IMG/VR virus record: IMGVR_UViG_3300020055_000117
Coordinates: 1 to 28,230 of that record
Source of the DNA: a virus
Strand: one strand, 5' to 3'
Length of the DNA: 28,230 nucleotides
Numbering within the stretch: the stretch's first letter is position 1; each line of letters starts with the position of its first letter. The position numbers and the translations under genes were made by a program. The notes beneath the pieces were generated by a model. It had not been told where the DNA came from. It made no database searches and was given only the letters and a program-made list of their open reading frames with translations. Positions 16,036 to 20,518 of the stretch are shown here, piece by piece.

Positions 16036-18513
16036 TTATTCCTCAGCGTTTTGTCTAATTCTACGCTGTTCTGTTAAACTATCTGATAGTAAACGTATAA
16101 TATTAGCTGCCTGTTCTTCAGTAATACCGCCCACTCTTGAAATGTCTGATTGTAGTGTATCACTCATTTGGTTACCGTCAGCATCAACAATGCTTATAGG
16201 TGCAGTGCTATCCATACCTGACAAAACTGTGTTACCTTGCAAGAAAGCACCGCTAACCGCAGCTTCATCTAGTACAAATCCTGTTCCCTCAGTTAAACTT
16301 GCAACATTTCTATAAAGTTCTACCAAATCTCTCTGATAATCTTCTATTCTTGAAGCACTTCTGTTTCGTCCACTTGATTCAAAATCCCAATATTCGTTTT
16401 CACCTGCTTCACTTCTAGCAATACGCTGACGTTCTGTATCTATATTGCTTTGTAAATTTTGTATGCTATACTGAAAGTCATCTAGTTTATCCAATATACC
16501 ACCTGAAATATATTCATTAATATTTTGGAAACGTGCATCTTCACCTGTTTGGCCATTGTTTAATACTCTTAATAGAGTTGTATCGTCTAAACCTATACTA
16601 GATTGTAAATCGCGAATACGTCTTTCTCTTTCATCGCTTACTATCCTGGCCGCTAATCCGTCATCACCAGCAGCAAATGCATCTACGTATTCTTGGTTTT
16701 CCCTCATAAAGCTCGGACTACTTGCTATTTTATCCATACTTATATTATTAAACATTGTGCGTATTGCATCAGCATTTAATAATGCATCTCCAGCTGATGT
16801 AATATCTTCGTTAGCTAATTGTGAATTTAATGCTGCTTGTTCACTTTCAGTTAAATTAACATCTGCTGTGCCACCACTTAATACCGAAACTCTATTGGCT
16901 CTTATTTCAGCATTTGCTATTTCAATATCTTCAATTTCATCAACATTAAGTATGCGAGTAGATAACGAATTTAGTGCTGTTACAAGTGCTGCACCACCAG
17001 CTTCAATCCCTGATTCAGCACCAGTGAGCTGCTGCAACAGCGTGTCTGCCATTTGAACGCCTTTTGTTTTTATTGAATTTACAACTGTTTCCATGGCACC
17101 TGGCAACGCTAAAATTTTAAGTCTTCCTTCTTCAGCTGCGGTGGCAAAATTATCAATACTAGCCTGGGCATCTTCAGATGTAATATCAGTAAACCCACGC
17201 ATTGCAGCTATTGCTTCAATTACATCACCAGCAATACCTTGTAGTGGAGTATTAAGATCTGCTAAACGTGTCAGTGCCTGGGGGTCTATTCTCATTTCAT
17301 CAAGCATACCAGCCACTCTTTCATTTACCTGTGTTTGGAATTCAGCAGGATCCATACTTGCATAGCTACTACGATAAAAATCAAATAGTTCACGTATACC
17401 AGGTATACTTGCACTCATTGCAGCTAATTCGTTATCAAATGTACCAAAATCAGTATTATTCCTAATAGCTGCTGTAAAACTATCTTCAATACGCTTACCT
17501 AAATTACCAGTACCGTCTAGTGCAGCGGCAAAATTTCCTAGGTTATCAGCAGCATTTCCAGTTTGTGTACTTAAAAATAGTGCATTTCTTGCATTAGATA
17601 ATGCTTCTTGACGTGCTCTTAATCTTTCACGTCTGTCAGTACCAGTTAATTCTGCAAGTGCTGTTTGTTCTCTGAGTAATGTTGTCAAACTTTCAGACTG
17701 CTCATCTAAATTGTTTTTATCTAGCTGTCCACGTAGGCGTACTAGTTCAATTTCATCAGCAAGTGCATCATTTAGTGCACTGTTAGTTAAACCAAATTGA
17801 CCAAATTCTGAAATATTCATTCTAAGAACATGACTTAAATCACCAAATTCAGCAGCACCACTACTTATATTATCACCTAACGATCTTATAGCACGTTGGT
17901 TATTAGTAATAACTTTTCCAAAATTTTCAAAATCCAAACCAGCAAGACCAGCCGCAGTTCTTAAATCTACCAATGATCCGTGTAATCCAATACCAACATT
18001 ATTAAGCTCAGCAGTTGTTTTTGCAAACCCTTCAATAACACCAATAACTACACCAATACCTGTAGCGAACGCAGCTAAATATCCACCTATTTTAGGTATA
18101 TCACTTAAAACATTAGAAACTTCATCCATTGCAGCTGATAAACTTGAAACATCTGCTTTTGTAACACTTTTAACTTTATTCGCAAAGGCATTAAACGCTC
18201 TAGAGGTTTCTTTTGTACCTTCTTTTATTGCAGATGTTGTACCGTCACCACTAGTTTTAGTTGCATTAGCGTTTTCTTTAAGTCCTTTTTCAAATTCATC
18301 AGCTAAATTATCTAATGATCTGTCTAATTTATTAAGTTCAAGTTGACTAGCACCAGTGGCTTTAACTAGAGATTTTAATACATTTAATCCTTGTGCGTTG
18401 AGTAAGTTTCCTCTGTCAACAGACCTTAATATACGACTTTGAACTTCAGCAGTCGCCCAGGCAGGTACTGGTATTTTTTCACCACCGATTGGTATATTGT
18501 ACATATCAGCCAT
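16036..18513 (-). CDS. Probable tail tape measure protein (825 aa)
   Basis: This long, mostly helical protein starts MADMYNIPIGGEKIPVPAWA. Residues ~140-165 hold a hydrophobic stretch (IGGYLAAFATGIGVVIGVIE) of the kind tape measure proteins carry for membrane passage. Long helical tracts with few aromatics flank it (ELVRLRGQLDKNNLDEQSES and onwards), and the C-terminus is charged. At about 1.5 A per residue, 825 residues would span roughly 120 nm, close to a T4-like tail. It is transcribed divergently from gp26 with its frameshift extension, matching the usual chaperone-tape measure neighbourhood. T4 gp29 is the functional counterpart, but I cannot show homology by eye. The ribosome site ahead of the start is weak. 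Confidence 0.62.
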   Translation of the reverse strand: MADMYNIPIGGEKIPVPAWATAEVQSRILRSVDRGNLLNAQGLNVLKSLVKATGASQLELNKLDRSLDNLADEFEKGLKENANATKTSGDGTTSAIKEGTKETSRAFNAFANKVKSVTKADVSSLSAAMDEVSNVLSDIPKIGGYLAAFATGIGVVIGVIEGFAKTTAELNNVGIGLHGSLVDLRTAAGLAGLDFENFGKVITNNQRAIRSLGDNISSGAAEFGDLSHVLRMNISEFGQFGLTNSALNDALADEIELVRLRGQLDKNNLDEQSESLTTLLREQTALAELTGTDRRERLRARQEALSNARNALFLSTQTGNAADNLGNFAAALDGTGNLGKRIEDSFTAAIRNNTDFGTFDNELAAMSASIPGIRELFDFYRSSYASMDPAEFQTQVNERVAGMLDEMRIDPQALTRLADLNTPLQGIAGDVIEAIAAMRGFTDITSEDAQASIDNFATAAEEGRLKILALPGAMETVVNSIKTKGVQMADTLLQQLTGAESGIEAGGAALVTALNSLSTRILNVDEIEDIEIANAEIRANRVSVLSGGTADVNLTESEQAALNSQLANEDITSAGDALLNADAIRTMFNNISMDKIASSPSFMRENQEYVDAFAAGDDGLAARIVSDERERRIRDLQSSIGLDDTTLLRVLNNGQTGEDARFQNINEYISGGILDKLDDFQYSIQNLQSNIDTERQRIARSEAGENEYWDFESSGRNRSASRIEDYQRDLVELYRNVASLTEGTGFVLDEAAVSGAFLQGNTVLSGMDSTAPISIVDADGNQMSDTLQSDISRVGGITEEQAANIIRLLSDSLTEQRRIRQNAEE

Positions 18514-18590: not shown

Positions 18591-19421
18591 ATGTCAGATA
18601 ATCCGCTAGTAAATCATTTTAGAAAAGTGGAAGTTTATATTCCATTGCCCAGTAAAGGAAAATATTATCCAGAAAAACTGGAAACCAGTGTGGATGATGA
18701 AATTGGTATCTATCCCATGACTGTAAAAGATGAGATTGAAATCAAGAGTGCTGATAGCTTATACAACGGTGAAGCACTTTATCACATGATTTCCAGTTGT
18801 GTTCCCAGTATTAAAGACCCTAAAAATATGCCAGTTTGTGATGTTGATCCTATCTTATTAGGTATCCGTTATGCAAGTTATGGTAAAGAAGTTGACCTTA
18901 ATATGACTTGTCAAAAATGTGAAGCACTTAATCAGTTCAGTGTTAGCGTACAAGACATGTTAGGTAGATTACAACCAATGGAAGGCAATGATACAGTGAC
19001 GCTGGAAGATAAAACAATTATTCACATTGTGCCTTATATGCTTAAACATCGTGTACAAACCAGTGTACAGAACAGCAAAAACAGACAGCTTATGCTTGTA
19101 CTTAATAATGCAAATAAAAGTGATGAAGAAAAGAAAGAAATTTACAACCGTACAATTGTAGAACAAAGTCTACTATTAACTGACTTGGTTAGTCAGTGCA
19201 TTAAAAAAGTTGTACTGGAAGATGGTACTGAAGTAGATAACCCATTATTCATTAAAGAATGGGTTGAGAATATCAATCGTAAAACATACGATATACTAAA
19301 TGATGCAATTGGGAAATTAAGTCAAACAAGAGTGAATAAACAAGTGCAAGGTAAATGTAACAGTTGTGGAAGTGATATCCATTCAAGCCTTGAAATAGAT
19401 CCATTCAGTTTTTTCACATAG
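18591..19421 (+). CDS. 26: Baseplate hub assembly protein gp26 (276 aa)
   Basis: This matches the T4 gp26-like baseplate protein family of marine phages: VEVYIPLPSKGKYYPEKLET, IGIYPMTVKDEIEIKSADSL, and a body with CVPSIKDPKNM and ILLGIRYASYGKEVDLNMTC. Two CxxC pairs (C107/C110 and C256/C259) could bind zinc together. The gene ends SLEIDPFSFFT with a run of six T followed by C (19409-19415) just before the stop. That run lets a -1 shift enter a downstream frame, giving a longer product. This mirrors the tail assembly chaperone pairs (lambda G/GT, P2 E/E') that sit next to tape measure genes. It is preceded by a late box. Confidence 0.88.
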   Translation: MSDNPLVNHFRKVEVYIPLPSKGKYYPEKLETSVDDEIGIYPMTVKDEIEIKSADSLYNGEALYHMISSCVPSIKDPKNMPVCDVDPILLGIRYASYGKEVDLNMTCQKCEALNQFSVSVQDMLGRLQPMEGNDTVTLEDKTIIHIVPYMLKHRVQTSVQNSKNRQLMLVLNNANKSDEEKKEIYNRTIVEQSLLLTDLVSQCIKKVVLEDGTEVDNPLFIKEWVENINRKTYDILNDAIGKLSQTRVNKQVQGKCNSCGSDIHSSLEIDPFSFFT

Positions 19422-19457
19422 AGCTCTTGCGTAACCCTGACGATGTTGAAGGGCTCT
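19409..19457 (+). promoter_or_regulatory. Predicted -1 programmed ribosomal frameshift signal
   Basis: The heptamer T TTT TTC (19409-19415) is in the X XXY YYZ register of gp26, with TTT in the P site and TTC in the A site. After a 4-nt spacer, AGAGCTC (19420-19426) pairs with GGGCTCT (19451-19457) as a 7-bp stem with one G-U and a 24-nt loop. The gp26 stop TAG follows 3 nt after the heptamer. Shifted ribosomes read 73 further codons. Confidence 0.8.
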
Positions 19458-19636
19458 TAGAAAAATACAGTCAGGAACAGGAAACCTTGGAGGCAACTAT
19501 TTTTGATATTCATATTCAAGGAGGGGTTTCTTTAAGAGATCTTTATCTATTAAGTAAAAAGCAAGTCAACTTAATGGTCACAAGAATTAATAAAGTCAAC
19601 GAGAAAAAATCAGGTAAGTCGAAACAATATCTATAG
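19415..19636 (+). CDS. -1 frame extension of gp26 (tail chaperone GT-like), fusion of 348 aa
   Basis: The frame begins in the slippery run and reads HIELLRNPDDVEGLLEKYSQ, then EQETLEATIFDIHIQGGVSL and RDLYLLSKKQVNLMVTRINK to a TAG at 19634-19636. It has no ATG at its head and no ribosome site before the possible TTG at 19427, so independent initiation is poorly supported, while entry by a -1 shift from gp26 needs no start. The product would be gp26 residues 1-275 plus 73 residues. The charged helical extension fits the T domain of tail assembly chaperones, which contacts the tape measure protein. If the shift does not occur, this is a 69-aa TTG-started protein of unknown role. Confidence 0.75.
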   Translation, partial: HIELLRNPDDVEGLLEKYSQEQETLEATIFDIHIQGGVSLRDLYLLSKKQVNLMVTRINKVNEKKSGKSKQYL

Positions 19637-19641
19637 TATAA

Positions 19642-19659
19642 CGTTGACTTACGTCAACG
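19642..19659. other. Hairpin just after the gp26 extension
   Basis: CGTTGAC and GTCAACG form a perfect 7-bp stem around TTAC, 5 nt after the stop at 19636. No U tract follows directly (the nearest T run is at 19685-19690), so this is not a normal intrinsic terminator. It could stabilise the mRNA end. Confidence 0.6.
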
Positions 19660-19731
19660 GAAATTTCGTTATCACTCAATTTCATTTTTTATTATATACG
19701 GAAGATTTTATTTTAACTTTACCATGATGTT

Positions 19732-20036
19732 AGTCACACTTAGCCTGAATAAGGCCAAGTGTACTCAGGAAAACTTTACCAGTCAGCCATGTCACACCGT
19801 ATCTCGAATAACCTTTATAACGCAAGGCAAGGGCGGTTGTGCGATACCCTTTTATATTCTACTTACAACGCAGGAACACAGAAAGCCAGATACGGCGACA
19901 ATTCTGCTACCCGTGAGTTCCAATGGTTCAGGAGAGCTCACTCATTTTGGTTTGTCAAACCAGCGCATAGACTGCAACACATCACTCCACCGGCGACGAG
20001 CATTACCTCGGCTGGATCTTGATGGGTCCTAAGACC
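19732..20036. ncRNA. Candidate structured non-coding RNA, about 50% GC
   Basis: The 411-nt gap 19637-20047 has no convincing gene. Three 60-nt blocks from 19861 count 50%, 47% and 53% GC against about 37% in gp26. Visible helices are: 19732-19765 (AGT-c-ACACTT-a-GCCT with AGGC-c-AAGTGT-ACT); a perfect 8-bp long-range pair CCGTATCT 19797-19804 with AGATACGG 19888-19895; inside it GCG-g-TTGT 19833-19840 with ACAACGC 19865-19871; GTGAGTTC 19913-19920 with GAGCTCAC 19934-19941; TGGTTT/AAACCA 19948-19962; CCGGC-ga-CGAG/CTCG-GCTGG 19990-20015; GGTC/GACC 20025-20036. Two stems contain G-U pairs only on the plus strand and one only on the minus strand, so the strand is unsettled. It matches no RNA family I know. 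Confidence 0.45.
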
Positions 20037-20047
20037 AAATACGGTTG

Positions 20048-20518
20048 CTATGTTTTATTTTTTGGAGATTTGTTAGCCAGTGTTTTACGATGTTCTAGTA
20101 ATCTTTGACGTAGTATGTTACTACTGCCAACTCTTACATTTATAATGCCATTGTAATATTCGTCTGTTTCTAAAACGCCACGATCAAATTGTTCTTTTGC
20201 TTCAAGATAAGACAGTTCGCCTCTACTTTCACAATAATATAATATTTCTCTTGTAAAATTATCTTCGCCAAGTTGTGCGACATCTGCATTTAGATGTTCG
20301 CTTGAGCCCCAGTATGTTCGCCAATCGCTTTCTACTGTTGTACGTCTTTTACGTTTTTTGCCTTTAAGGGGAGGTCTGGTTTTTTTAAATTGAGCTAGTT
20401 TTTTGCCAATGTATTTTTTATTGTTAGTTAAATTTGTTATGAGATAGACGAAGCCTACGCATGATTCTGGAAGTTCTGATACTACTTGCCCATTATACTG
20501 CCATTCACTCTTTGCCAC
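20048..20518 (-). CDS. GIY-YIG family endonuclease-like protein (156 aa)
   Basis: Near the N-terminus, GFVYLITNLTNNKKYIGKK has the Y...10...YIG arrangement of the GIY-YIG nuclease fold, followed by a basic stretch (PPLKGKKRKRRTT). Then come WRTYWGSSEHLNADVAQLGE, a CES segment and YLEAKEQFDRGVLE; the Glu of the latter is a candidate metal ligand. Proteins like this occur as Seg-type or stand-alone nucleases in T4-like phages. The start overlaps the 111-aa gene by 14 nt and it is the last gene of the early gp55 operon, next to the structured non-coding stretch. It could be a homing endonuclease or a phage DNA-metabolism nuclease. Confidence 0.72.
   Translation of the reverse strand: MAKSEWQYNGQVVSELPESCVGFVYLITNLTNNKKYIGKKLAQFKKTRPPLKGKKRKRRTTVESDWRTYWGSSEHLNADVAQLGEDNFTREILYYCESRGELSYLEAKEQFDRGVLETDEYYNGIINVRVGSSNILRQRLLEHRKTLANKSPKNKT

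Follow-up and report, generated by a model that had tools for sequence, protein, structure and literature searches.

The window analysed here is a 28,230-nucleotide viral sequence, positions 1 to 28,230 of record IMGVR_UViG_3300020055_000117 from IMG/VR. On its forward strand, positions 18591–19421 encode a 276-aa protein that matches the Pfam profile PF12322 (T4_baseplate) over residues 24–266 with 62.8 bits, against a curated cut-off of 24.5, as well as phrog_150, labelled 'baseplate hub', with an E-value of 5e-19. By these profile matches, the protein is a member of the gp26/T4_baseplate family. No DNA-level relative of the window was found among deposited phages, and the protein relatives of gp26 share 23–31% identity with it. 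They come mostly from jumbo phages and include Phosso, Cassandra/PA5oct, Atu_ph07, CBB, GAP32, 121Q, RaK2, XacN1 and SCTP-2. An AlphaFold2 model of gp26 has a confident fold (mean pLDDT 90.7) and matches T4-like baseplate hub (assembly) proteins among the BFVD viral models. Searching the PDB with this model gave no significant match to solved chaperones; the HK97 chaperone 2ob9 had a Foldseek E-value of 7.2, and its superposition on the model (Z 6.0 over 102 residues at 5.2 Å) falls below the tool's trust level. Two CxxC pairs, C107/C110 and C256/C259, do not vary among 17 diverse gp26 proteins and are almost invariant in 28, which suggests a metal-binding site.

The gp26 protein ends in DPFSFFT, and its last codons are AGT TTT TTC ACA TAG. 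They contain the slippery heptamer T TTT TTC (19409–19415), set in the gp26 frame with AGT at 19407, TTT at 19410 and TTC at 19413, and the stop codon TAG (19419–19421) lies one codon past it. The −1 frame opens with CAC at 19415 (CAC ATA GAG...) and runs through 73 residues (HIELLRNPDD...SKQYL) to a TAG at 19634–19636. After a slip, this extension (19415–19636, forward strand) would be joined to residues 1–275 of gp26 as a putative C-terminal domain of a tail-assembly chaperone (TAC-C), giving a fusion of 275 + 73 = 348 aa. A sequence-only reading of this DNA had described the in-frame heptamer, a 4-nt spacer, a 7-bp stem, the open frame of 73 codons with its 348-aa product, and the lack of a credible start codon for that frame; all of these were found at the locus. 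Both strands of the window hold 212 heptamers of the form XXXYYYZ, and none but that at 19409–19415 combines a position close to a real gene's end with a −1 frame that outlasts the 0 frame by at least 40 codons. Two other formal hits sit in spurious frames overlapping real genes.

An initial comparison with seven contigs and fifteen deposited phages already showed the heptamer and the open −1 frame. The full comparison set comprised 176 distinct gp26 genes, assembled after scanning IMG/VR with the window protein, with gp26 of a cyanophage and with two jumbo-phage alignments. The set covers RaK2-like, PA5oct-like and Atu_ph07-like jumbo phages, cyanophages and environmental contigs. T TTT TTY was found at the matching place in 173 of the 176 genes (170 with T TTT TTC and three with T TTT TTT). 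The remaining three (L129, L145 and L147) carry A AAT TTT, which yields an identical fusion join and is a natural replacement of the slippery T-run. The 0-frame stop lies 1 to 11 codons past the heptamer in the relatives. The residue preceding the Phe-Phe pair varies (S, N, D, H, T, G, A, Y or R), its codon ends in T in 173 out of 173 cases, and, among the other Phe-Phe pairs of these gp26 genes, no more than 3 out of 108 are spelled T TTT TTY. T4 gene 26, which ends GAG TTC TTT GAG..., keeps the Phe-Phe pair without the heptamer. A T-ending codon before a variable residue, together with the different spelling of the pair in T4, therefore indicates selection on the nucleotide sequence beyond that on the protein. 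The heptamer at 19409–19415 exceeds chance, and its conservation across relatives confirms, at the level of sequence comparison, that the signal is real.

Reading frames split close to a homopolymer typically signal error, and a single gene broken by an assembly or sequencing indel would resemble this locus. The identical split in 176 out of 176 distinct sequences, many of them from independently sequenced cultured phages, refutes an indel and leaves this explanation with practically no probability. The homopolymeric T-run would also suit transcriptional slippage, in which RNA polymerase slips on the run and a fraction of the mRNAs is frame-shifted. Known runs of this kind usually comprise nine or more bases, whereas the run here, exactly six T in 170 genomes, seven in three and five in three, is short for polymerase slippage. 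Its phase is kept as X XXY YYZ, including in the three genomes with five T, where A AAT TTT is found, and this fits slippage of two tRNAs. Slippage during transcription is, on this evidence, very unlikely.

Selection is also evident past the heptamer. Over the 117 nt past the gp26 stop in the relatives' genes, none of the 6,708 −1-frame codons is a stop, while the other two frames contain 613 and 614 stops (about 9%). Single-change codon differences are synonymous in 56–83% of cases in the −1 frame, compared with 7–19% in the other frames. Both counts use related sequences, which are not independent events, and each of three separate groups shows a large contrast. The length of the extension varies within narrow limits, being 73–81 aa in the window's group, 69–71 aa in RaK2-like phages and 59–66 aa in cyanophages. 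The substitution pattern indicates that the −1 frame evolves as protein. AlphaFold2 predicts a three-helix domain for the extension (pLDDT 79), and a fold search with it gave no significant match.

A protein-coding −1 frame could also be a separate small gene with its own start, which would be TTG at 19427 in the window and ATG or GTG in other genomes. It is annotated in this way in records such as 121Q_595, CBB gp249 and XacN1 ORF316, and in 73 out of 172 relatives the −1 frame contains an ATG at most five codons past the heptamer. Against an independent start, 55 of the 172 have no ATG within the first 15 codons, and a Shine-Dalgarno-like sequence precedes any ATG, GTG or TTG in that stretch in only 19. 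In the window itself, TTG 19427 has no upstream Shine-Dalgarno-like sequence, and the −1 frame contains no ATG before 19574. Moreover, the synonymous excess is visible as early as codons 5–16 past the heptamer, so that coding selection already acts there, and an own start would leave the nearly invariant T TTT TTY unexplained. We regard a separate gene as most improbable. Comparative sequence analysis thus establishes the slippery site and its conservation, the coding nature of the −1 frame and the homology of gp26.

Public records treat the extension in various ways. It is given as a separate hypothetical gene with a guessed start in several of them (L018:3837-4046, L013:3867-4043, L011:3864-4046, L020:3732-3905 and L009:3834-4064), one cyanophage record labels it 'putative baseplate hub assembly catalyst', and it is unannotated in the RaK2 and Cassandra records.

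Downstream of the heptamer, a spacer of four nucleotides (ACAT, 19416–19419) is followed on the forward strand by the two arms of a predicted RNA stem, the 5' arm at 19420–19428 and the 3' arm at 19449–19457. The minimum-energy fold extends the 7-bp stem AGAGCTC/GGGCTCT to 9 bp with four inner pairs (−12.1 kcal/mol). The window by itself gives modest evidence: compared with protein-preserving codon shuffles, the stem has a z-score of −1.9 over 45 nt, with 3.6% of shuffles as good, and the fold over 60–75 nt has a z-score of about −0.9. Across relatives, the 75 nt past the heptamer are more strongly folded than codon shuffles in the window's group (mean z −1.48, n=69) and in cyanophages (mean z −1.92, n=77), whereas windows farther downstream give z-scores of −0.2 to −0.7. 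No such excess of structure past the heptamer was found in the RaK2-like group (mean z −0.33, n=18). The sequence of the stem and the length of its loop vary among relatives; therefore, the structure seems to be kept in kind and not in detail. The stem is likely a stimulator of slippage.

On the other side of gp26, an 825-aa protein is encoded on the reverse strand (16036–18513), divergently from gp26. It belongs to a virion-protein family and is homologous to the proteins encoded between the portal gene and gp26 in CBB, 121Q, RaK2, Cassandra and Phosso (hhalign E-value 3e-9). The protein has one hydrophobic segment, from residue 142. Its homologue in CBB, CBB_251, was detected in virions with 29 peptides, and the CBB virion list contains neither CBB_250 (gp26) nor CBB_249 (the −1 ORF). 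The portal protein CBB_252 is also missing from that list, so the absence of gp26 from it is weak evidence. A profile comparison of T4 gp29 with the family of the 825-aa protein gave no significant match. Based on synteny, length and the annotation in RaK2, the 825-aa neighbour is probably the tape measure. In Atu_ph07, gp26 (gp686) and the annotated tape measure (gp701) are not immediate neighbours.

Past the extension, about 410 bases (19637–20047) contain no recognisable gene. A 102-aa ORF within them (19724–20032) had no PHROG match, and the segment matched no Rfam family and its folding is not unusual (z −0.94). The next gene (20048–20518, reverse strand), which sits between the gp26 region and an SbcC-like gene, encodes a 156-aa protein that matches several homing-endonuclease families as well as phrog_447, which bears the label NAD synthetase; this label may be misleading and the protein a homing endonuclease.

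The arrangement at gp26 resembles that of known tail-assembly chaperones. A −1 frameshift near the end of the lambda tape-measure chaperone gene gives a short and a long form, G and GT (PMC5009743). Lambda G/GT and P2 E/E' share with the proposed reading of gp26 a −1 frameshift near the end of the chaperone gene and the resulting short and long forms. The comparison with lambda is one of layout, since the orientation of the tape measure and the domain sizes differ: the 825-aa candidate lies on the strand opposite gp26, unlike the lambda tape measure. Another parallel is the TAC locus of phage Adele and of the Vandenendeviridae/Andersonviridae, for which PMC12846349 describes a conserved −1 frameshift at the poly-T sequence GTTTTT and a downstream ORF wrongly listed as a gene of its own. 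The window shares with it the predicted poly-T −1 frameshift, and relatives of the window the separately listed downstream ORF. The Adele locus belongs to other phage families, and, as far as described, its TAC genes are upstream of the tape measure and codirectional with it.

T4 itself is arranged differently. Its gp26 (208 aa) and gp51 (249 aa) are encoded by separate genes and are homologous (BLASTP E-value 2e-6 in a two-sequence comparison), with gp51 being longer at the C-terminus. This C-terminus matches the cyanophage −1 product weakly and not conclusively (hhalign, p 0.001), and a profile of the window's extension gave only a weak C-terminal match to gp51 (hhalign, p 0.09). T4 resembles the window in having a gp26 homologue together with a gp26-like protein that carries an extra C-terminus; it differs in that the two are separate, divergently oriented genes without a slippery heptamer. 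A study by Vladimirov, Gautam & Davidson (Virology 2022, 566:9-15) is said to describe frameshifting as conserved in several T4-like groups, and T4 as using genes 26 and 51, that is, the gp26 family. This reported arrangement agrees with the homology of T4 gp26 and gp51 and with the match of the gp51 C-terminus to the cyanophage −1 product. A review of T4 counts both gp26 and gp51 among the hub assembly chaperones and reports that gp51 is not part of the particle (PMC3004832). The T4 literature also has gp26 as a hub component (PMC3004832), which counts against a chaperone reading.

Citing the 2022 study, PMC12846349 states that T4-like phages carry poly-T slippery sequences in their TAC-N genes, and PMC10885494 that some T4-like phages have, in place of a frameshift, one short gene and one long fused gene. 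The window has in common with these TAC-N/TAC-NC systems the poly-T slippery site and the predicted short and long forms, and its tape-measure candidate is divergently oriented. The sequence-only reading had taken the frameshift to be undescribed for T4-type gp26 and to tie gp26 newly to the chaperone class. Its frameshift mechanism, with a GT-like long form of gp26 next to the candidate tape-measure gene, is strongly supported by the comparison with the 176 relatives, in which the alignment of gp26 genes gave T TTT TTY in 173, A AAT TTT in three and no −1 stop in 6,708 codons. Its novelty does not stand: the frameshift was already reported for T4-like phages in 2022, and both the link to the chaperone class and the poly-T site were published then, as relayed in PMC10885494 and PMC12846349.

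We propose, with a probability of about 0.92, that a programmed −1 frameshift yields a short form of gp26 and a 348-aa long form acting as a pair of tail-assembly chaperones. The two products would very likely be gp26 (276 aa) and gp26 with a 73-aa helical domain (348 aa), in the layout of lambda G/GT. In this mechanism, gp26 would be the short chaperone (TAC-N). At T TTT TTC, where Phe-tRNAs would occupy TTT and TTC, a minority of ribosomes would shift back by one base, probably aided by the stem four nucleotides downstream. The slipped ribosomes would bypass the TAG one codon further on and produce the 348-aa TAC-NC with its 73-aa helical C-terminal domain. As with G and GT in lambda, a coat of many short and few long copies may then form on the tape measure, for which the 825-aa neighbour is the probable candidate, and bring in tail-tube subunits. 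That ribosomes slip in cells, the proportions of the two forms, the role of the stem and the chaperone action are inferred.

The window carries, by comparative analysis, a well-supported further case of an already known chaperone frameshift of T4-like phages. Our search of the open literature found no paper on a gp26 frameshift in RaK2-like jumbo phages, which proves little. We tentatively suggest, at somewhat less than even odds, that the 2022 work did not extend to the jumbo-phage branch (RaK2-like, PA5oct-like, Atu_ph07/Phosso-like and marine relatives), that our data would be the first evidence of a near-universal gp26 frameshift there, that T4 genes 26 and 51 may represent a lineage in which a second gene replaced slippage, and that A AAT TTT may be a natural replacement of the T-run.

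For a large group of giant phages, the analysis identifies the likely long form of the tail chaperone, whose C-terminal domain is listed in records as an unrelated small hypothetical gene or omitted. It also provides a rule for correcting annotations, namely the presence of T TTT TTY before the gp26 stop. It further supports the view put forward in 2022 that T4 genes 26 and 51 encode tail-assembly chaperones.
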